From Flavisolibacter longurius (GTDB lineage: Bacteria; Bacteroidota; Bacteroidia; Chitinophagales; Chitinophagaceae): a DNA stretch of 64,000 nt. A program made the position numbers and the translations under genes. The notes under the pieces were generated by a model. The model ran no database searches. It was not told where the DNA came from and worked only from the letters and a program-made list of their open reading frames with translations. Location: contig JACJGO010000010.1 in NCBI GenBank assembly GCA_014163555.1, positions 1 through 64,000 on the forward strand. Direction: 5' to 3'. Shown here piece by piece: positions 17,789 to 54,239 of this stretch. Position 1 is the first letter of the stretch, and every line of letters begins with the position of its first letter.

Positions 17789-19012
17789 TTAGCGCAATTC
17801 TTTTTCCAGCGCCAGGGCTTTTGGGAAAAGAATATTGTTCTCCAGGTGAATGTGCTGGTGAAGGTCTTCGTCCAGCGCTTTTAATTTTTTATACAGAAAC
17901 TGGAAGGAATTGCAGGCGCCATCCGGAGCGGTATAATCGTTGGTGATCTTTTGCAACGCTTCCAGGATTTCTCCGGCCGCTTCATGTTCTTCTTCCATCA
18001 TTTTCACCGGTGCTTCCAGCGAAAACTGGGACCGAAGGGCTTCTTTATTCCCGCTGGCTTTGGCTCCTACCAGGGCTTTTACAAACGGAAAAACAATCTT
18101 TTCTTCTTTGGCGAAATGGCTACCCAGTTCTTCTGCCAGGGTTTTGTAAAGTTCGTACACATGGTTTAAAACCGGGTAATGATCACCGTGACGCATGAGC
18201 ACCTTGGTGAGCAGGTCTGCAATCACCGGGCCTTCATCATAATAGTAAACGTGGTGTTTGTTGTAAATATAATCGGCCAGGAAATCCGGGCTCCAGCGGT
18301 CGAAGTGCTCGCCGGCTTTTTCAGTTACCTGTGCATTGTCCAATGCTGCTTCCACGGCCGCAAGGTCCAGTCCTTTTTCATCACACACCTGCTTCAGTGT
18401 TTTTTTACCGCCACAGCAAAAATCAATTCCGTATTTGCGGAAAACTTCTGCTTTGCGCAGGTCTTTGGCTGCAATCTGTCCAACAGTTTCACCAGCTTCT
18501 ACATCCACTTTGCGAATCTGCACACGCCACCAGGTTGGGCCCTGCTCAAGGTACTCCCAAGTAAAAATGTTGCCTCTTTCAGCGATCAGTTGGTAGTAGA
18601 GCGGTTTGGGATCATGGTCATTCAGGATCTGGAAAGCCTCTCCCCCCTTCAGTTCATCAAAATGGCGGAAGATGGTGGGGTGTTTATACCGGGGCTCAAT
18701 CAGGGTTACATTCAATACAAAAACATCGGAGCCTTTGGCTGCAGGTTGCGGAGCCGCTGCTTTTGGAATTTCGCAGGCACCGCCGGTTTTCCGGATCTCC
18801 ACTTTCCATACTTCAGGTCCTTCTTCCAGTTTGATCCATTCAAATACATTTCCTCTTTCTGCCTTCATTTCATAAAACAGCGGAATGGGATCATGATCGT
18901 TGATCAATAATAAAGCGTCGCCGGTTTCAAGGGCATCAAACTTTTCAAAAACGGTAGGATGCTTGCGGGCCGGTTGCAGTTCCGGTATAACCAATGTTTC
19001 GATGAGTTGCAT
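17789..19012 (-). CDS. Di-iron Fe-S cluster repair protein (RIC/ScdA/YtfE) with two DUF2249 domains
   Basis: A 407-residue cytoplasmic protein. Two DUF2249 repeats come first (about 10-75 and 90-165). They share the paired motifs KHPTxFxxFDxL and INDHDPxPLxYxxxAERGN-F-W. Next is the ScdA N-terminal domain (175-225, with RKYGIDFCCGGKKTL). Last is a hemerythrin-like helical bundle (240-400) whose His and Glu residues (HHVYYYDEG, MRHGDHYP, EEEHEAAGE, HQHIHLENNILFP) would hold a di-iron site. RIC proteins repair Fe-S clusters damaged by nitric oxide or oxidants. Most RIC proteins lack DUF2249; two copies fused in front is a notable architecture. A perfect palindrome lies 21 bases upstream. Confidence 0.93.
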   Translation of the reverse strand: MQLIETLVIPELQPARKHPTVFEKFDALETGDALLLINDHDPIPLFYEMKAERGNVFEWIKLEEGPEVWKVEIRKTGGACEIPKAAAPQPAAKGSDVFVLNVTLIEPRYKHPTIFRHFDELKGGEAFQILNDHDPKPLYYQLIAERGNIFTWEYLEQGPTWWRVQIRKVDVEAGETVGQIAAKDLRKAEVFRKYGIDFCCGGKKTLKQVCDEKGLDLAAVEAALDNAQVTEKAGEHFDRWSPDFLADYIYNKHHVYYYDEGPVIADLLTKVLMRHGDHYPVLNHVYELYKTLAEELGSHFAKEEKIVFPFVKALVGAKASGNKEALRSQFSLEAPVKMMEEEHEAAGEILEALQKITNDYTAPDGACNSFQFLYKKLKALDEDLHQHIHLENNILFPKALALEKELR

Positions 19013-19189: not shown

Positions 19190-20353
19190 ATGGTTATTAT
19201 GAATCCTTTTCTTTCTTTTTTCCAGGGTGGCTTTGAATGTGCCGATATCGTCAACAACCGCGGCAACCGTGTAGACCTACTGTCTCTCACCTTTCATCAT
19301 GAACGGGTGGAAGAAGACTACAGCCATTTGGTAAACCTTGGAATACGAACCGTCCGAGAAGGAATCCGGTGGAGTGTTGTGGAAACAATCCCTTACCAAT
19401 ACGACTTTACTGAAGTGGCTCATCGCATCCAGGCAGCAAACAAATTTGGTGTGCAGCAGGTTTGGGACATTTGCCATTTTGGCTACCCCGATGGCCTGAT
19501 GCCAGGGCATCCGCAATTTGCTGAGCGGTTTGCTGGCCTCTGCAGTGCATTTGCAAAATTCTATACAGAAAATACCTTGCAGCCGCTGGTAGTAGTACCG
19601 ATCAATGAAATCAGCTTTTTTTCCTGGCTGGGCGGCGAAGCCAGGGGCACGGTGCCCTTTGCCATCAACGCCGGTTTTGATCTCAAGTATTTTCTTTGCC
19701 GCGCAGCCATTAGGGGAGCAAAAGCCATTAAAGCGATTGTACCGGATGCAAAGATTATGCTGGTGGAACCGCTGATAAGGGTGCATCCGAAAGAAGGCGA
19801 ATCACACTGCGAGAGCATAAACGGTTTTAATGAAGCGCAGTTCCAAGCAATGGATATAGTATGCGGCAAACTTTGTCCGGAACTGGGTGGCGACCCTTCA
19901 CTCATGGATTACGCCGGCTTTAATTTTTATTATAACAATCAATGGGAACATGGTGGCGAAACTTTGGGCTGGTGCACTATCAGAAGACGAACACCATTTT
20001 ACCAGCTATTAAAAGATGCCGCTGACCGCTATCAAAAGCCTGTGGTGCTTTCTGAAACGGGGCATTTTGGCGAACACCGGGCAAACTGGCTGGACCTGAT
20101 CACAGCCGATTGTCTCACCGCTATGGAAATGGAAGTAGATCTGAAAGGCATTTGCATTTACCCGGTTCTGGACCGACCCGACTGGGATACACTTCAAACC
20201 ATCGAGTGTGGTATCTGGGGATATGATGAAGCCGGAAATCGCAGTGTGCAATTGCACTACCACGATGCTGTGCAGCGATGCATCGCACAAGTTGACAATT
20301 GGTTTGCCAGGCGTGTTCAAAAACTGGACGACCCTGCATTAATCGTTGCCTGA
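19190..20353 (+). CDS. GH1/clan-A-like glycoside hydrolase (TIM barrel)
   Basis: A 387-residue cytoplasmic protein without a signal peptide. It has a beta/alpha-barrel hydrolase look: RTVREGIRWSVVE early, the acid/base in VVPINEISFFSW (Asn-Glu), GFNFYYNNQW, and the nucleophile Glu in PVVLSETGHFGE. It resembles the beta-glucosidase clan but is shorter than typical GH1 enzymes (about 450 residues), so the family is uncertain. MNPF at 19199 is an alternative start. It is divergent from the nitric-oxide repair gene with the palindrome in between, and has no sugar genes beside it. Confidence 0.65.
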   Translation: MVIMNPFLSFFQGGFECADIVNNRGNRVDLLSLTFHHERVEEDYSHLVNLGIRTVREGIRWSVVETIPYQYDFTEVAHRIQAANKFGVQQVWDICHFGYPDGLMPGHPQFAERFAGLCSAFAKFYTENTLQPLVVVPINEISFFSWLGGEARGTVPFAINAGFDLKYFLCRAAIRGAKAIKAIVPDAKIMLVEPLIRVHPKEGESHCESINGFNEAQFQAMDIVCGKLCPELGGDPSLMDYAGFNFYYNNQWEHGGETLGWCTIRRRTPFYQLLKDAADRYQKPVVLSETGHFGEHRANWLDLITADCLTAMEMEVDLKGICIYPVLDRPDWDTLQTIECGIWGYDEAGNRSVQLHYHDAVQRCIAQVDNWFARRVQKLDDPALIVA

Positions 20354-20424: not shown

Positions 20425-20958
20425 CTATTGCGGCAGTTTTTCACGGACAAGACCATATACCCAGGTGCCAGCAATGGCGCTGGCCAGCACAACAATAACG
20501 ACCAGAAAACCGTTTGCGATTTGTGCAAACAGCGGTCCCGGGCAGGCGCCTGTCATGGCCCATCCAAAACCAAATAAAAGGCCTCCATAAATCTGTCCTT
20601 TGTTGAATTTTTTAGGATGGAATGAAATGTCTTCGCCGTGAATGGTTTTGATCCTGAATTTCTTGATGAGTGCAACGGAGATGATTCCGACAATCACGGC
20701 TGAACCAATGACGCCGTACATGTGAAAACTTTGCAGGCGAAACATTTCCTGGATACGAAACCAGGATACCAGTTCGGCTTTTACAAATACAATTCCGAAG
20801 ATGAGTCCTACTGCCAGGTATTTCAGATTATACCACCAGGGATGTTGCTGATGCGATTCGTTAATACAAATCGTATCCAGCGACCGCACTTCAAAATCTG
20901 TATCCTGCAGACTGCCCCCTTTTATCACATCACGCGTTTTCTTATTTGTTGTTTGCAT
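20425..20958 (-). CDS. YeeE/YedE-type membrane transporter, second half-protein
   Basis: A 177-residue membrane protein with four to five hydrophobic segments. The signature GWAMTGACPGPLFAQIANG contains the conserved Cys that handles thiosulfate or related sulfur species in the YeeE family. ATG 20958 (MQTTNKK) was chosen; the longer frame runs into the preceding gene in another frame. It pairs with the other half-protein 20 bases upstream. Together they correspond to the two halves of a full-length YeeE and probably work as a heterodimer in sulfur uptake or export. Confidence 0.85.
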   Translation of the reverse strand: MQTTNKKTRDVIKGGSLQDTDFEVRSLDTICINESHQQHPWWYNLKYLAVGLIFGIVFVKAELVSWFRIQEMFRLQSFHMYGVIGSAVIVGIISVALIKKFRIKTIHGEDISFHPKKFNKGQIYGGLLFGFGWAMTGACPGPLFAQIANGFLVVIVVLASAIAGTWVYGLVREKLPQ

Positions 20959-20978
20959 ACACCAAATCCATTTTTGGT

Positions 20979-21542
20979 TTATAACCGTAGAAGAAAAGGT
21001 AGAATACCATTGGCCATTATAAATCCGCCTGCCATAAAGGAAAGTGTTGCCACAAGCGAAGGAACCTGCAGGTTGCTTAAACCCATGATGGCATGTCCGG
21101 ACGTGCAACCGCCTGCATAGCGGGTTCCAAACCCAACCAGGAAACCGCCTACCACCAACAGCAAGAAACCTCTTACCGTAAATAAACTTTCGAAACTAAA
21201 AAGCTCCCTGGGTAACAGACCGCTCTTGTCCCGGATGCCGTAGGTTTCCAGTTCCTGCATCAAGGTTGGATGCACGTCAACAGGTGCGGGGTTGGCAAGA
21301 AAATACGTAGCCAGCAAAGCCCCTATAAAAATGCCGCCAACAAAAAAGAAATTCCAGACTTCTTTTTTCCAGTCGTACTGGAAAAACGGAATGTTAGCAG
21401 GAAAACAAGCCGCGCAGGCATGACGAAGGTTTGCAGAAATCCCAAAATGTTTATTGCCCAGGAGCAGAAGGGATGGCACAATCAGGCCAATAAGTGGACC
21501 GGCTATATACCATGGCCAGGGTTGTTTGATAAAATCCAACAT
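20979..21542 (-). CDS. YeeE/YedE-type membrane transporter, first half-protein
   Basis: A 187-residue inner-membrane protein with five hydrophobic segments. The conserved thiol motif is [15 protein letters not shown] (about 148-162). Further Cys residues sit in [14 protein letters not shown], which marks the subtype found next to persulfide dioxygenases. It follows the dioxygenase gene by 66 bases and precedes its partner by 20 bases. The substrate is probably thiosulfate or another sulfane sulfur compound, inferred from the family and neighbours. Confidence 0.87.
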
Positions 21543-21584
21543 AGCGTTATTTTGTGTTGTTTTTGTTTTTTTACAGCGTGAAAA

Positions 21585-21603
21585 CAGGGCTTGTGTTGCC
21601 CTG
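21585..21603 (-). terminator. Hairpin between the dioxygenase and YeeE genes
   Basis: On the minus strand CAGGGC and GCCCTG form a 6-base stem around a 7-base loop, followed by TTTTC. It comes 6 bases after the dioxygenase stop. It may end that message or reduce expression of the two YeeE genes. Confidence 0.5.
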
Positions 21604-21608
21604 CTTCT

Positions 21609-23033
21609 TTATTTGTTTGATGGTGTTGTAGGACACACGAAATCTGTAACAGGCACTTCCCCGGATTCTTTGATGGCCTTAAAGCCGCCCTGCACATCTA
21701 CCAGGTTGGTAAATCCCCTGGCTTTTAAAATCGAACCAAAGATCATGGAACGATAACCGCCGGCGCAATGCACATAATAAGGCTTGTCTTTCTGAAGTGA
21801 AGGAATATGCTCATTGATGTTGTCGAGTGGCAGGTTTATAGCACCTTCCACATGCTCACTGCTGTATTCACCCGGTTTCCGCACATCAATGACGTCGGCA
21901 GGACGTTGCTGTAACTGCTTCGCAAACTCCGTTGCGGAGATGGATGGAATGTTGTCTGTTTCTTTTGCGGCCGCCTTCCAGGCTGCAAAGCCTCCTGCCA
22001 GGTAACCGATGGTATGGTCATATCCTACCCTTGCCAGACGTGTGATCACTTCCTCTTCCCTACCCTCATCCGTCACCAAAAGAATCTGCTGTTTAATATC
22101 AGGAATCAGTGCGCCTACCCATGGAGCAAAACTGCCGTCGATGCCAATGTTGATCGAATTAGGAATAAATCCTTTGGCAAACGTTTGCGGGTCTCTTGTA
22201 TCCAGTATCAGCGCACCGGTTTCATTAGCCGCTGTTTCAAAAGCTTCCGGTGAAAGCGCCTGCTGTCCCCGTTTCATCACCTCATCGATGCTTTCATAGC
22301 CCTGGATATTCAGCATTACATTCAGCGGAAAATAAGCCGGCGGCGTGGTAAGACCATCCGTCACTTCTTTGATGAATTCTTCTTTCGTCAAATCGGTCCG
22401 CAGGGCATAATTGGTTTTTTTCTGGTTGCCCAATGTATCCGATGTTTCCTTGCTCATGTTCTTTCCGCAGGCACTGCCGGCACCGTGCGCCGGGTAAACC
22501 ACCACATCATCCGGCAGCGGCATGATCTTGTTGCGCAGCGAATCGTACAGGTGTGCGGCCAGGTAATCCGGGGTAAGTTCGGGCTTTAGTTTTTGCGCCA
22601 GGTCGGGCCGGCCAACATCGCCAATAAAAAGCGTATCACCGGAGAAAAGCGCCACATCTTTCCCGCTTTCATCTTTCAGCAGGTAACAACTGCTTTCCAT
22701 GGTATGACCCGGTGTGTGCAAAACGGTAAATGTAACGGCTCCTACCCTCAGCTCTTCGCCGTCTTCTGCAACATGGGCTTCAAAACCGGGCCTTGCATTT
22801 GGCCCGTAAACGATGGTAGCACCGGTTTGTTTTGCCAGGTCGAGATGACCGCTCACAAAATCCGCATGAAAGTGGGTTTCAAATATATACCTGATGGTGG
22901 CACCACTGCGGGCTGCCCTGTCGAGATAAGGCTGCACTTCCCGTAGCGGATCAATGACAACGGCTTCACCATTGCTTTCAATAAAATAAGCACCCTGGGC
23001 CAGACAGCCCGTATAGATTTGTTCGATTTTCAT
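21609..23033 (-). CDS. Metallo-beta-lactamase/rhodanese fusion, persulfide dioxygenase (CstB/ETHE1-like)
   Basis: A 474-residue cytoplasmic enzyme. The N-terminal metallo-beta-lactamase domain (1-240) has the iron ligands of THFHADFVSGH, LHTPGHTMES and LFSGDTLFIGDVGRPDL, as in ETHE1-type dioxygenases that turn persulfide into sulfite. Two rhodanese domains follow. The first (about 265-360) has VTDEGREEE where the active loop should be, so it lacks the catalytic Cys. The second (370-465) has the intact YYVHCAGGYRSM. S. aureus CstB has the same three parts, so one active and one dead rhodanese is a known theme. ATG 23033 (MKIEQIYTG) is the natural start. A Crp-type site lies 46 bases upstream. 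Confidence 0.92.
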   Translation of the reverse strand: MKIEQIYTGCLAQGAYFIESNGEAVVIDPLREVQPYLDRAARSGATIRYIFETHFHADFVSGHLDLAKQTGATIVYGPNARPGFEAHVAEDGEELRVGAVTFTVLHTPGHTMESSCYLLKDESGKDVALFSGDTLFIGDVGRPDLAQKLKPELTPDYLAAHLYDSLRNKIMPLPDDVVVYPAHGAGSACGKNMSKETSDTLGNQKKTNYALRTDLTKEEFIKEVTDGLTTPPAYFPLNVMLNIQGYESIDEVMKRGQQALSPEAFETAANETGALILDTRDPQTFAKGFIPNSINIGIDGSFAPWVGALIPDIKQQILLVTDEGREEEVITRLARVGYDHTIGYLAGGFAAWKAAAKETDNIPSISATEFAKQLQQRPADVIDVRKPGEYSSEHVEGAINLPLDNINEHIPSLQKDKPYYVHCAGGYRSMIFGSILKARGFTNLVDVQGGFKAIKESGEVPVTDFVCPTTPSNK

Positions 23034-23078
23034 GTTCCTTGTTTTGAAATGTAAAGGTGAGACCATTCTTTCTTTTGA

Positions 23079-23098
23079 AACGTGACCTATATCACGTT
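23079..23098. promoter_or_regulatory. Crp/Fnr-type operator before the persulfide dioxygenase gene
   Basis: AACGTGA at 23079-23085 and TCACGTT at 23092-23098 are perfect 7-base arms around CCTATA, a close relative of the Crp consensus TGTGA-N6-TCACA. The site sits 46-65 bases before the dioxygenase ATG. The same CGTGA-N6-TCACG core recurs at 23970-23985 and a Crp-type regulator is encoded between, so this is a strong candidate for its operator. Confidence 0.8.
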
Positions 23099-23104
23099 AT
23101 CATT

Positions 23105-23917
23105 TTACCAAGGGCTTTCGCCCGGTAGAAAAATTTCTTTCACCAGGATATAAAGGCCCATCACCAGCACAAACCAGCCGAAACCTTTTTTTAGCTTGTC
23201 GGCATGCACCTTTGTGCTTATCCAGTTGCCAATAAAAATGCCAGCCGATGCAATGCCGGTAATGAGCAGGAGAAAAGGCCAGTCCATCTCGTAGGTAGTT
23301 ATATCGCTGGTAAAGCCAATCAGGGATTTGGCGGCAATGATAAGCAACGATGTTCCAACTGCCTGCTTCATCGGAAGGTTGCTTAAAAGAACCAGCGCCG
23401 GAATAATCAGAAATCCGCCCCCTGCCCCTACAAGTCCCGTGATTGTACCAACCAGAATACCTTCCGCCAGAATCAATGGATAATTGTAGCGTTGCTTCGT
23501 CTCCGGCTCGGCAGAAAGTTTTGTTTTGTTGCGAATCATCGAAAACGATGCCACTACCATCAGCAAGGCAAATAGAAGCATCATGAGCAGGCTTTTGGTA
23601 AGCACTACATCGCCTATCTGAATAATGGCTTCCGGTATATTGGGCACAATAAATTTCCGTGTGGCAAAAACGGCTGCAATAGAAGGCAAACCGAAAATTA
23701 GAGCCGTTTTCAAATGAATAAGACCCTGCCGGTATTTGGGAAGAGCGCCAACAAGGCTTGTGCTGCCCACAATAAAAAGAGAGTAGGCTGTGGCCAGAAC
23801 CGGCTGTACACGGAAAAGATAAACCAGCACAGGCAGGGTTAAAATAGACCCGCCGCCACCGATCAAACCCAGCGAAATACCAATCACCAACGAGGCCAAG
23901 TATCCTGCAACTTCCAT
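23105..23917 (-). CDS. TauE/SafE (TSUP) family sulfite/sulfur-compound exporter
   Basis: A 270-residue membrane protein with eight hydrophobic segments and the family repeats GLIGGGGSILTLPVLVYL and GLVGAGGGFLIIPALVLL in its two halves. TauE/SafE proteins export sulfite, sulfoacetate or similar ions. In persulfide-detoxification clusters this export would clear the sulfite made by the neighbouring dioxygenase. It is preceded by its own Crp-type operator and lies between the dioxygenase and the regulator gene. Confidence 0.9.
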   Translation of the reverse strand: MEVAGYLASLVIGISLGLIGGGGSILTLPVLVYLFRVQPVLATAYSLFIVGSTSLVGALPKYRQGLIHLKTALIFGLPSIAAVFATRKFIVPNIPEAIIQIGDVVLTKSLLMMLLFALLMVVASFSMIRNKTKLSAEPETKQRYNYPLILAEGILVGTITGLVGAGGGFLIIPALVLLSNLPMKQAVGTSLLIIAAKSLIGFTSDITTYEMDWPFLLLITGIASAGIFIGNWISTKVHADKLKKGFGWFVLVMGLYILVKEIFLPGESPW

Positions 23918-23961
23918 GCTTTTTCTTTACGGATTAAAACCAAAGGTGGGCTATATTCTGC

Positions 23962-23993
23962 ACTACTTTCGTGACCAATGTCACGAGAGTAGT
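23962..23993. promoter_or_regulatory. Crp/Fnr-type operator before the TauE/SafE gene
   Basis: The core CGTGA-CCAATG-TCACG spans 23970-23985. The arms extend to 13 bases each (ACTACTTTCGTGA and TCACGAGAGTAGT) with one mismatch. It lies about 53 bases before the TauE/SafE start and overlaps the last codons of the Crp-type gene itself. It shares its core with the site at 23079-23098. Confidence 0.8.
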
Positions 23994-24628
23994 TTTGGCA
24001 AGTTTAAAAGTTCAACATGCGATTTGTGGAGCCGTACAACGCCATTTTCCGAAAGCTTTTTCATCAGGCGGGACACCACTTCACGGGAAGAATTCAGCTC
24101 ACGGGCCATATCCGTAAATGAGATGGAGATAGAATTACTACTCGATTTTTCCTGGTGACGCTTCAGGTAAAAAAGCAGGCGTTCATCCATATTCCGAAAT
24201 GCAATGTGGTCGATGGTTTGCAGCAGTTCATCAAACCGTTCGCGGTAAGAGCTCACGGCAAACTGTGCCCAGCTTTTGTACGTTCCCATCCATTGATCAA
24301 CCTTTTGAATTGGAACGGCCAAAATGGTAGCTTCCGTTTCCGCTTTTGCCAGCAAGGTACTGGTTTCGGTTCCGGGCACGCAAACCAGCGAAATGGCACA
24401 AGCTTTACCCGCATCGATATAATACATGAAAAATTCATTGCCTTCATCATCTTCGCGATAGATCTTGACAAGCCCTTCCAGAACCAACATCGCGGAACGG
24501 ATGTTTTGTCCTGTCCGCATCAGCACCTCGCCGGGTTGGAGAGTGCGGATTTGGCCCGCAGCCACCATTTCGGCAGCCAGGTCTTTTTCAAAGGAAGGAA
24601 AAATGCGAAGCAAGTCGTTTTCAGTCAT
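23981..24628 (-). CDS. Crp/Fnr-family transcriptional regulator of sulfur genes
   Basis: A 215-residue regulator. A cyclic-nucleotide-binding-type beta-roll fills 15-130 (LQPGEVLMRTGQNIRSAMLVLEG is its core, here cut to PGEVLMRTGQ). The C-terminal winged helix carries DMARELNSSREVVSRLMKKL. The Ser-Arg-Glu-x-x-x-Arg arrangement of the recognition helix is the one used by Crp to read GTGA, and matches the two CGTGA sites beside the gene. Fnr-type N-terminal cysteines are absent; Cys residues in the roll (KACAISLVCVPG) could sense sulfane sulfur. That sensing role is an inference. Confidence 0.9.
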   Translation of the reverse strand: MTENDLLRIFPSFEKDLAAEMVAAGQIRTLQPGEVLMRTGQNIRSAMLVLEGLVKIYREDDEGNEFFMYYIDAGKACAISLVCVPGTETSTLLAKAETEATILAVPIQKVDQWMGTYKSWAQFAVSSYRERFDELLQTIDHIAFRNMDERLLFYLKRHQEKSSSNSISISFTDMARELNSSREVVSRLMKKLSENGVVRLHKSHVELLNLPKLLS

Positions 24629-24716
24629 GGGTCAAAGATAATTGGCTGAACCCGATACTACCTAACCGGCTTTGCAACGGGGATAAACGTTCCGGGAGTA
24701 GATTTACACTAAAAAA

Positions 24717-25157
24717 ATGGCGAAGATTTTATTGGAACGAAAGAAGGGTGCGTTTGGATTTGATGTAAAAGATGAGTTGGGACACCTGCTTCAAACCGAC
24801 AGCAGCCGTGAAAATGGCGGTGATGATTATGGCTTCCGTCCCATGCAATTGCTGCTGGCAGCACTGGGAAGCTGCAGTGCAATTGACATGGTGGCAATCC
24901 TGTCCAAACAACGACAGGAAATTTCGGATATGGTCATAGAAATTGAAGGCGAACGGGAGAAAGATGTTATTCCGTCTTTATGGAAAACCATTTCGGTTGT
25001 GTACAACTTAAAAGGAAATATCGACGCTGAAAAAGCGGAAAAAGCGGCGACCTTGTCGATGGAGAAATACTGCTCGGTAGCCGAAACCCTGCGCCGCGGT
25101 GGCACCGCCATTACATGGAAAGTAAACGTGGAAACAACACTCACTATTACAGAATGA
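24717..25157 (+). CDS. OsmC-family thiol peroxidase-like protein
   Basis: A 146-residue cytoplasmic protein. The two redox cysteines of OsmC/Ohr proteins are in LGSCSAIDMVAIL (about residue 46) and MEKYCSVAETL (about 120). The family reduces organic hydroperoxides, and some members act on persulfides. The gene is divergent from the Crp-type regulator, 88 bases apart, and leads to cysteine synthase, so a role in sulfur or oxidative stress is likely. No CGTGA operator was found before it. Confidence 0.88.
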   Translation: MAKILLERKKGAFGFDVKDELGHLLQTDSSRENGGDDYGFRPMQLLLAALGSCSAIDMVAILSKQRQEISDMVIEIEGEREKDVIPSLWKTISVVYNLKGNIDAEKAEKAATLSMEKYCSVAETLRRGGTAITWKVNVETTLTITE

Positions 25158-25277
25158 ACGATGACAGTAGCACCCATTTACAAAAATGTAAATGTGCTAT
25201 TGCCTTTTGGAAATGAAACCGCGAACAATTTTACATTAGCGGAAGATCAAAAAAGGAAATAAATTAAACAGCAAACC

Positions 25278-26153
25278 ATGGCAAGCGTTTTAGATACGGT
25301 AGGCAATACAACACAGGTAGAGATCAAACGGCTTAACCCCAATCCGGCAGTAAAAATTTTCGCCAAGCTGGAAGGAAACAACCCGGGTGGCAGCGTAAAG
25401 GATCGGCCGGCCCTGAATATGATCCGCAGTGCGTTGGAACGCGGTGATATTTCACCCAAAACAAAACTGATTGAAGCTACCAGCGGAAACACCGGCATTG
25501 CCATGGCGCTTATTGCCAATTTGTATGGTCTGCAGATTGAACTCGTAATGCCTTCCACTTCCACCCGTGAACGTGTATTGACCATGGAGGCATTGGGCGC
25601 TAAAGTCATCCTGCTCGATAACATGGAGGTCTGTCGTGATTATGCCGAAGAAAGGGGTGCCAGTGGCGACTATTTCCTGCTCAACCAGTTTGCCAACCCG
25701 GATAATTACCAGGCGCATTATAAAACCACAGGACCAGAGATTTGGCGGGACACGCAGCAACAGGTAACTCATTTTGTGAGCTCCATGGGAACAACGGGGA
25801 CCATTATGGGAACATCCATGTACCTAAAAGAGCAAAACAAAAACGTTCAGATTGTGGGTTGCCAGCCCACGGAAGAATCGTCCATTCCCGGGATACGGCG
25901 CTGGGCACCGGAATACCTTCCTAAAATTTTTGATCCCTCGCGGGTGGACCGGATCATGGATATTTCGCAGGAAGAAGCAACCAATATGACGAGACTACTG
26001 GCGAAGGAAGAAGGCATTTTTGCCGGCATGAGCAGTGGAGGCGCCGCTTCGGCTGCGATACGCCTGAGCAAAGAATTGTCAGAGGGAACGATCGTATTTA
26101 TTGTTTGCGACCGTGGCGACCGGTATCTGAGCAGTGACCTGTTTGGAAACTAA
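25278..26153 (+). CDS. cysM: Cysteine synthase B (O-acetylserine sulfhydrylase)
   Basis: A 291-residue PLP enzyme that makes cysteine from O-acetylserine and sulfide, or S-sulfocysteine from thiosulfate. The PLP lysine is in NNPGGSVKDRPA, the substrate loop is EATSGNTGIAMA, the phosphate loop is MGTTGTIMGTS, and the C-terminal MSSGGAAS follows. The length and the QPTEESSIPGIRRW segment fit CysM more than CysK. It follows the OsmC gene by 120 bases. With metY at 54.5 kb it forms the sulfide-assimilating side of this region. Confidence 0.93.
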   Translation: MASVLDTVGNTTQVEIKRLNPNPAVKIFAKLEGNNPGGSVKDRPALNMIRSALERGDISPKTKLIEATSGNTGIAMALIANLYGLQIELVMPSTSTRERVLTMEALGAKVILLDNMEVCRDYAEERGASGDYFLLNQFANPDNYQAHYKTTGPEIWRDTQQQVTHFVSSMGTTGTIMGTSMYLKEQNKNVQIVGCQPTEESSIPGIRRWAPEYLPKIFDPSRVDRIMDISQEEATNMTRLLAKEEGIFAGMSSGGAASAAIRLSKELSEGTIVFIVCDRGDRYLSSDLFGN

Positions 26154-53100: not shown

Positions 53101-54239
53101 TACACAAAATCATTGATCAGGCTATTGGGATTACGGGGTTCATGCGCAATGACCTGGAACTTTGTTTTTTCGGGGTCAATGATGTTTATGCCGCCTTTTA
53201 AGGTACCGATCCATTTCCGTGATTCCTTGTCTTCATAAATAGCATTGACTGAGCCGCTGGTAATGTTGTTTTTTTCATCGCCGGGTAAAATGGAAACAAC
53301 ATTGCCGGTAGCGATGCTGATAATATTCACGCCATTGCCTTCTGTGCCTACCCACATCTGTTGTTGCTTGTCCAGAAAAAGACTGGTAATGCTGGATGAA
53401 GAAAGATTTTCCGCCGCAGCTATCTTTTTACGTGTAACCGTTGAAGTGAGCAGGTTACAGGCAAACAGGCCGCTTTTTGTACCGATCCATAATTCATTAC
53501 CCAGTACCTCCAGGCACTGGATCGATTTCATGTCTGTAGTCACAAGTTGTAGTTGCCGGGTTTTATGGTCATACCGATAAAGCCCATGTTCTTCTACAAA
53601 CAGCCAAACAAGGCCTTTGCCATCCCGTTTGATTGCCGATACCGTGTAATCCGTGACTGCTTGTGCTCCTTTTCGGAGCGGTAGTTGAAAAGCAACCTCC
53701 CCGGTGTTCTCTTTTACCAGCAACCCCGCGTTTGCGGTTCCAATAAACAGGTTGCCTGCCTGATCGGTTTCAATGGTGTGTATGTTTGCGGTTATTTTCC
53801 GTTTTTCATTTTGACCATGGCGTGAATAAAAAGCCGGCTTCCATTTGGCTGTCAGGTTATGATAGATACCAATACCTTGTCCTGTTCCCACCCACAACTG
53901 TTGGTGATGATCTTCACGAATAACATTGATATAGTTGTACGGCAGGGAAGCTGAATCACCCAACCGGTTGCGAAAAACCGTGAATTCATAGCCATCAAAC
54001 CGGTTTAGGCCATCATAGGTACCAAACCACATAAACCCGTTCCGATCCTGATAAATGCATCGCACCGAATTGTTGGAAAGGCCTTTTTCAATACCCAGGT
54101 ATTTTAAATGGGGAGATTGTGCCTTTACATCTCCCAACAGCAGGAAACCGCAAAGCCATAAAAGCCACATTCCCATCGTAGCCAACTGTCTCTTAGCAAG
54201 GCATCGCATCATAAAGCATACTGCAATTTCATATAGCAC
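50103..54239 (-). CDS. Hybrid two-component sensor (HTCS) of the polysaccharide locus
   Basis: A 1378-residue single-polypeptide sensor and regulator. A signal/anchor segment (WLLWLCGFLLLGDVKAQ) leads to a periplasmic two-blade-set beta propeller (45-740, many W-x-G-T-x-G and GLNRF repeats), a Y_Y_Y domain (745-810) and a membrane helix near 825. Inside the cell come the HisKA domain (ISHEFRTPLTLI, phospho-His), the HATPase (ALKYTPEGGKI, EDTGPGIPEEL), a receiver (VVVEDDADIR, DIIISDLMMQNG, GGADDYITKPFE) and an AraC-type DNA-binding domain (IGMSHSNLYRKVK, GISDVKYFRKQF). It senses oligosaccharides and activates the locus. Several ATGs (54239, 54212) are possible starts. Confidence 0.96.
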   Translation of the reverse strand: MLYEIAVCFMMRCLAKRQLATMGMWLLWLCGFLLLGDVKAQSPHLKYLGIEKGLSNNSVRCIYQDRNGFMWFGTYDGLNRFDGYEFTVFRNRLGDSASLPYNYINVIREDHHQQLWVGTGQGIGIYHNLTAKWKPAFYSRHGQNEKRKITANIHTIETDQAGNLFIGTANAGLLVKENTGEVAFQLPLRKGAQAVTDYTVSAIKRDGKGLVWLFVEEHGLYRYDHKTRQLQLVTTDMKSIQCLEVLGNELWIGTKSGLFACNLLTSTVTRKKIAAAENLSSSSITSLFLDKQQQMWVGTEGNGVNIISIATGNVVSILPGDEKNNITSGSVNAIYEDKESRKWIGTLKGGINIIDPEKTKFQVIAHEPRNPNSLINDFVYSFFEDKQRNLWIGTDGGGFSIWNRQQNRFSHFRHEDRKENSLTNNSVTGILQDAQNNTWISTYGGGINRFQISTGTFEYYPCINDRTGEEHKVVLVLYEDRDKDLWAGTFANGKLFRFHRGKNRFEVFDHSLSNLLSMAEDANGDLWAGNTNQLIKIDKKNRKHRYYEISKPVRGIYEDKKGDFWIGTEGGGLILFDRNKGEIVRRFSVEDGLCNNSILKILEDDKGQLWLSTFDGLSKFNWEKKEFRNYYQSDGLQSNQFHFRTGLRLASGEFVFGGIKGFSLFYPDSIQPRKYMPPVVLTNLRINGKPAADAFDYVVKTSGDEIRSLRIPYSDAQLSLDFAALEYSAPDRIAYAYYLEGWDKDWNYSNKLRTANYTNLKEGTYTLRLRATNAEGTWNKEEKFITITVLPPWYRTVWAYSIYFLFVASLVYLYLRYQTRQTRLEYEVRLAHLQAEKEKELNEKKLSFFTDISHEFRTPLTLIINPLKDYLLQTDKSKPHSLQVVYRNARRMLSLVDQLLLFHRADADREELKINRLNFSELCREVYGNFELGARAKKLTYEFFTDNENTTLYADKEKIEIILYNLLSNALKYTPEGGKIHFSLREEDDDVVVAIEDTGPGIPEELSHRLFERFYQVQGTKGAAKPGFGIGLYLVKHFVDKHKGAITFSNRVGGGASFYLRFRKGVEHLGEYRVLGSVVEKTILPELLEEELPLKAATTNTGQLPEIITDQKSLVVVEDDADIRNYITGIFREDYQVYEASSGEEGLRLAKELLPDIIISDLMMQNGNGLELCAAVKTDPATSHIPVILLTAVSSPEVKLQGVEGGADDYITKPFEKELLVARVKALLTSRSALQQYFYNEVTLQRNDQKISAEYKAFLERCIQIVEAHLEDDDFTIKKLAQEIGMSHSNLYRKVKEISGQSVSSFIRFLRVRKAAELMIKSGMNVNEASFQVGISDVKYFRKQFQKLFGMNPSEYSKKYRSTFTEAYAVNKKLINPD

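Follow-up and report, generated by a model that had tools for sequence, protein, structure and literature searches.

How does a member of the Bacteroidota control genes for the detoxification of reactive sulfur, and is a Crp-type protein encoded beside them the regulator? The question is raised by a cluster in a 64-kb stretch of the Flavisolibacter longurius genome (contig JACJGO010000010.1, positions 1 to 64,000; hereafter the window), in which crp, tauE, pdo, yeeE1, and yeeE2 follow one another on the minus strand, with crp directly upstream of the tauE and pdo genes, and osmC and cysM divergent. A first-pass annotation had proposed that persulfide detoxification is controlled here by a Crp-type sensor whose gene lies between the sulfur genes; that gene does adjoin them, but its precise place is between tauE and the divergent osmC and cysM. 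From comparisons of related loci we consider it probable that the protein is a Bacteroidota thiol regulator of the Crp/Fnr family, dedicated to the adjacent reactive-sulfur detoxification genes and activating them. On sequence evidence, binding by the regulator and the position of its sites appear well supported; that the genes are activated and not repressed, and that the signal is persulfide, are predictions. The proposed Crp-type control gained support from the co-occurrence of regulator and sites and from covariation of a recognition residue with the operator (not significant given shared descent), while a sensory role stays conditional.

The two operators first noted, CGTGA-N6-TCACG at 23081-23096 before pdo and at 23970-23985 before tauE, proved to be the only matches in the window, where chance would give a mean of 0.01 (none of 100 dinucleotide-preserving shuffles reached two). 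The looser GTGA-N6-TCAC matched three times against 0.66 expected, so that the third match (53904-53917) is compatible with chance and was rejected as an operator. Across the 5.66-Mb genome, CGTGA-N6-TCACG was present at five sites versus one for the reversed control, and GTGAYN4RTCAC at 23 versus nine, meaning that about nine of the latter matches may be background.

Of the family's 244 genomes, 175 had a match to the Crp protein (E ≤ 1e-15). In 60 loci around the better matches, the gene order crp, tauE, pdo, yeeE was widespread, and GTGA-N6-TCAC was the top gapped palindrome (38/60 loci) when 4-base gapped palindromes were counted from 40 bases before to 260 bases after the crp stop codon; the runner-up, TGAT-N4-ATCA (13/60), can sit inside it. 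GTGA-N6-TCAC again ranked first in 80 named loci (38/80 versus 14), a set that overlaps in part with the 60 (for example, L039 is L098). Additionally, a site was present no more than 200 bases 5′ of tauE in 80 of 83 distinct loci that encode glutamate at Crp residue 183 (Glu183) and carry tauE within 4 kb downstream; 61 of these were exact, 19 were hybrids with one GTAA/TTAC half, and three loci had none. Before pdo, sites were found in 35 of 74 Glu183 loci. In Flavobacterium loci the site was mostly a hybrid of one GTGA and one TTAC half; among the 22 loci of Flavobacterium type, upstream sequences were inspected for the first 12. Examined as a possible refutation of the first-pass annotation, the sites thus turned out to be strongly conserved in relatives. 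In Flavisolibacter ginsengisoli (L039/L098), crp has no tauE-pdo operon next to it, its neighbours being a small DUF6132-like gene and a TauE-type gene in divergent orientation.

The regulator gene (crp, 23984..24628, minus strand, stop codon 23981-23983) encodes 215 amino acids, with PF00027 (cNMP_binding) followed by PF13545 (HTH_Crp_2), both above cut-off, and Crp structures were its best fold matches, placing it in the CRP/FNR superfamily. A CstR/CsoR or BigR/ArsR fold was rejected on these Pfam and fold searches. An equivalog of cAMP-CRP was likewise rejected, as the NCBIfam CRP model gave 40.9 bits against a cut-off of 266 and at the positions of the cAMP-contact residues of CRP, Glu72 and Arg82, this group has Ile/Leu and Thr (Ile and Thr in the window protein). 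FNR proteins bind a 4Fe-4S cluster through four cysteines that lie mostly near the N terminus; this identity was rejected too, since C77 and C83 are the sole cysteines of the window protein. In the alignment these occupy the place of the cyclic-nucleotide cassette of CRP. Cysteine was found at the C77 position in 256/256 aligned homologues and at the C83 position in 201/256 (176/176 and 166/176, respectively, in the first homologue set; nine of the 176 and nine of the 256 crp genes are identical to another, alignment A1 does not include L058, and L292 was unused). Both cysteines were present in all 37 homologues linked to tauE or pdo. The protein therefore has two nearby conserved cysteines, as looked for in a persulfide-sensing dithiol regulator. 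Its structure model has the Crp fold with lowest confidence at residues 82-85, the cysteine loop, and hence no C77-C83 distance is claimed.

The genes that would be controlled also bear on the signal. We collected 149 composite sites, in which GTGA-N6-TCAC is followed after 23 bases by the promoter box AnnTTTG, and behind these were tauE (52), pdo or rhodanese (51), outer-membrane efflux protein (OEP, 7), yeeE1 (6), YgaP-TM (4), and Pyr_redox_2 of the sulfide-oxidoreductase type (3), the rest being pairs or single cases that included thioredoxin and OsmC; this set is biased, since it came mostly from loci chosen by crp. When sites were chosen by pattern only (a single site from each of 30 genomes, out of 52 that matched), 16/30, the tauE site of the window among them, preceded sulfur or thiol genes and 14/30 did not, with classes assigned by sequence, partly from Pfam. 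In 69 loci that have neither tauE nor a close pdo, the biggest cluster of neighbouring genes (36/69) was represented by a rhodanese. The second composite operator of the F. longurius genome (contig C10:15118-15166) directly precedes a gene with a methyltransferase domain (204 aa, L273:5505-6167) whose start codon falls on the predicted +1 and whose product is possibly a thiol or sulfide methyltransferase.

Three further observations concern the reach of the composite operator. In the same genus (L275:5754 onward, G104 contig C18), one lies in the promoter of a Pyr_redox_2 gene of the sulfide:quinone oxidoreductase type, and sulfide oxidation may therefore share the regulon. Seven composite operators precede OEP genes (L243, L252, L057, L079, L093, L106, and others) with no obvious sulfur link. 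The idea that two further composite sites precede sox-type genes was dropped for want of Pfam support.

The strongest alternative is that the local Crp binds these sites while sensing something else, such as oxidants, nitric oxide, sulfite, a metal, or a small ligand. In its favour are the wide range of signals to which Crp/Fnr proteins respond, the lack of C83 in 55 of the 256 homologues, and the finding of a copper-type ATPase, besides the efflux proteins, behind composite sites. Against this, the neighbours are mostly rhodanese, PDO, YeeE, TauE, OsmC, and sulfide-oxidoreductase-like genes, and C77 is invariant. We regard a different signal as possible, with a chance well short of even. Reactive-sulfur sensing is preferred because of the two conserved cysteines in the cassette place together with the neighbouring genes.

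The mode of action was approached through promoter position. Exact palindromes numbered 184 in 1.8 Mb from 141 loci (the 60, the 80, and the window), of which 115 had a known gene fewer than 250 bases downstream and 109 remained after removal of duplicates. Alignment of these 109 promoters on the palindrome only revealed a fixed −7 box (A in 94/109, middle T in 105/109), and no conserved TTTG was found among them at the −33 position, so the promoters look weak without help. With every palindrome counted on both strands, AnnYTTG was spaced 23 bases from the exact palindrome in 107 of 382 strand-sites (24 bases, 8; 22 bases, 5; any other spacing, at most 4); GTAA and hybrid sites peaked at the same 23 bases (65 versus at most 4 elsewhere, 396 strand-sites). 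In Flavobacterium psychrophilum, according to passages of PMC9723704, TAnnTTTG spans −12 to −5, which together with the 23-base spacing places the palindrome centre at −41.5. Across 68 site-tauE pairs, no start codon lay upstream of the predicted +1 (at most nine bases could have been seen there), and 13 fell exactly on it, as expected for leaderless messages. Relative to the start sites so predicted, the palindrome centre thus lies near −41.5, the class II position of CRP, and the operator is predicted to replace the −33 element usual in Bacteroidota promoters, at the location of a class II activator.

A repressor could also occupy this position, blocking the promoter at −41.5 until released by reactive sulfur in the manner of CstR or BigR. 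These two persulfide regulators are repressors (passages of PMC9774590 and PMC7315123), and polymerase could be kept off by a protein bound across the −33 region. Repression nevertheless seems unlikely to us, as promoters that lack a conserved −33 TTTG look weak without help and the fixed class II spacing is needed for activation and not for steric repression.

That the activator would be the local Crp, and not another protein, is indicated by its association with the sites. In 117 family genomes the composite pattern was found 105 times versus 15 for the reversed control, and it was present in 33/42 genomes with the close Crp clade, 15/44 with a distant match only, and 4/31 without a match (no match at E ≤ 1e-15; G095, with a broken piece of 66% identity, was counted in the distant clade). 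The recognition helix of the window protein reads SSREVVSR (residues 180-187), in agreement with the SSRExVSR pattern originally described, and its E183 aligns opposite Glu181 of CRP, a base-contacting residue according to passages of PMC12531629. Among the first 176 homologues, an exact palindrome was near crp in 85/156 loci with Glu at this residue and in 0/20 with Val or Ala; in those 20, for all of which upstream sequences were inspected, the top palindrome was GTAA-N6-TTAC (11/20). In a further 80 loci searched for the composite, the 51 with Val had GTAA 14 times, GTGA 3 times, and one hybrid, the 28 with Glu had GTGA 8 times, GTAA once, and three hybrids, and the single Ala locus had none. 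Altogether, 116 of 247 loci were deciding, pairing Glu with GTGA 85 times, Glu with GTAA 5 times, Val with GTAA 24 times, and Val with GTGA twice. Glu181 mutants of the E. coli protein (CAP; Ebright) are said to accept GTAA, for which no confirming paper was found.

Several of our results weigh against the reading as a dedicated, thiol-based regulator of these genes. Seven of the deciding loci pair residue and operator the other way, the residue changed about six to seven times on the tree, and an independent-pairs test, which was underpowered with three pairs on well supported branches, was not significant; with so few changes and a non-significant test, shared descent may explain part of the covariation. 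The composite pattern is still present in four of 31 genomes without Crp, an exact site near crp is lacking in 71 of the 156 Glu183 loci, and 39 of the 74 pdo genes are not preceded by a site. The 55 homologues without C83 belong here as well, as does F. ginsengisoli, the closest named relative, which keeps crp and not the adjacent tauE-pdo order.

Could the sites instead belong to another, global Crp protein, with the local gene not their regulator? GTGA-N6-TCAC does resemble the general CRP operator, yet only one other protein of the genome passes the HTH_Crp_2 cut-off, the exact 16-mer occurs just five times in 5.66 Mb, the composite pattern tracks the presence of the local Crp across genomes, and the operator tends to change with residue 183 of that protein, making a global regulator very improbable. 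An origin of the palindromes by chance, or as a terminator or attenuator without any regulator, can practically be set aside: the overlap of one site with the end of crp would suit a terminator, but sites before tauE in 80/83 loci, fixed promoter spacing, a palindrome centre that is not conserved, and the absence of a following T run speak against it.

Within the window, the dedicated-regulator reading gives the following arrangement, on the minus strand unless stated otherwise. The operator before tauE (CGTGACATTGGTCACG, 23970..23985) overlaps the crp stop codon, and 23 bases separate it from the A of the −7 box CACCTTTG (23941..23948), assigned from the fixed spacing and PMC9723704; transcription is predicted to start at 23936, ahead of the TauE/SafE-family membrane protein (23105..23917; Pfam TauE, E 3.9e-44). 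The operator before pdo (CGTGATATAGGTCACG, 23081..23096) is followed at the same spacing by the box CACCTTTA (23052..23059), with a start predicted at 23047. Relative to the consensus TAnnTTTG, CACCTTTG and CACCTTTA both deviate at the first base, and CACCTTTA also at the last. The pdo gene (21609..23033) probably begins at 23033 rather than at 23066, from which its reading frame is open, and encodes a metallo-beta-lactamase fold and rhodanese domains (Pfam Lactamase_B, and Rhodanese in two stretches). Its protein missed the NCBIfam cut-off for the bifunctional sulfurtransferase/dioxygenase Blh (54.6 bits versus 625) and has a domain order, metallo-beta-lactamase then rhodanese, unlike that model; hence we call it persulfide-dioxygenase-like. 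Downstream are the YeeE/Sulf_transp proteins yeeE1 (20979..21542; Pfam Sulf_transp), which has no operator of its own within the window, and yeeE2 (20425..20958; Pfam DUF6691 and Sulf_transp), which probably starts at 20958 and not at the listed TTG at 21108.

Just 5′ of the crp start lies a −7 box (TATCTTTG, 24633..24640), and the crp message is predicted from this to be leaderless. No GTGA-N6-TCAC palindrome that would indicate autoregulation was found upstream of crp in the window; in other loci, nine of the 109 sites precede a crp gene. The divergent osmC (24717-25157) and cysM (25278-26153), sulfur- or thiol-related neighbours on the plus strand, have no operator of their own (24717..26153). 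Near the cluster and on its strand, a gene at 17789-19012 encodes two DUF2249 stretches with ScdA_N and hemerythrin domains, and no operator was found before it. Finally, convergent to yeeE2, a 387-aa open reading frame (19190-20353) had no Pfam match and looks by eye like a glycosidase-type barrel.

The cluster has genes in common with the known CstR, BigR, and FisR systems, as described in passages of PMC7315123 and PMC9774590. CstR of the CsoR family in Staphylococcus aureus is likewise a local regulator of persulfide-detoxification genes and senses through two cysteines (PMC9774590, in part). It is an all-helical tetrameric repressor of the CsoR type, whereas here a Crp-fold protein takes an activator position, and the activator mode predicted from the sites, on which the first-pass annotation was silent, sets the two further apart. 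The CstR operon reportedly includes TauE and a dioxygenase-rhodanese. BigR/SqrR, found for example in Acinetobacter baumannii, is a dithiol sensor encoded next to yeeE-yedE-pdo2, genes much like those here (PMC7315123), but it is an ArsR-family repressor whose fold and operator differ. In Cupriavidus and Acinetobacter, FisR also activates sulfide-oxidation genes through cysteine-based sensing of reactive sulfur (PMC9774590, in part), but is a sigma-54-dependent activator with a different fold and promoter type. An A. baumannii Crp-like protein is persulfidated under sulfide with unknown effect, and the passages of PMC7315123 report no link of it to sulfur genes; being 50% identical to E. coli Crp, it belongs to a different subfamily from the window protein.

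Closest in fold are two other proteins. E. coli CRP/CAP shares the GTGA half-site, the base-contacting Arg-Glu-x-x-x-Arg helix, and the class II position at −41.5, and it differs in that here the cAMP-contact residues are replaced, two cysteines lie in the cassette, and the promoter is of the Bacteroidota type. The best Protein Data Bank sequence match was 3dv8, a solved Crp/Fnr structure from Eubacterium rectale (profile 1.2e-26) with C-x5-C at the same place; it is a Firmicutes protein, and its record names just a putative Crp/Fnr regulator.

In the mechanism that we propose, Crp would bind GTGA-N6-TCAC, presumably as a dimer, and from −41.5 would activate tauE and, again, pdo with the downstream yeeE1 and yeeE2. 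Persulfide or polysulfide would most likely modify C77 and link it to C83, and this link would switch the protein to its active form. More broadly, we lean toward viewing these proteins as an extensive Crp/Fnr subfamily of Bacteroidota that seems not to have been described before. In it, the cassette would have turned into a cysteine switch for reactive sulfur, a multi-gene detoxification regulon would be activated from the class II position, and the Glu181 equivalent would have changed to Val several times along with a change of operator from GTGA to GTAA. We found no description of a Crp-type regulator of reactive sulfur in the open-access literature searched, most subscription papers and bioRxiv being outside its scope.

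The reactive-sulfur regulators in the literature found belong to other families (CsoR, ArsR, sigma-54 type, MarR, OxyR, and others). For a phylum with unusual promoters, GTGA-N6-TCAC-N23-AnnTTTG offers a testable operator and promoter rule for predicting regulons, and the loci provide a natural data set on coordinated changes in the recognition residue of a Crp protein and in its operator. Should such a Crp-type regulator prove widespread in the Bacteroidota, it would reveal how members of this phylum deal with sulfide.

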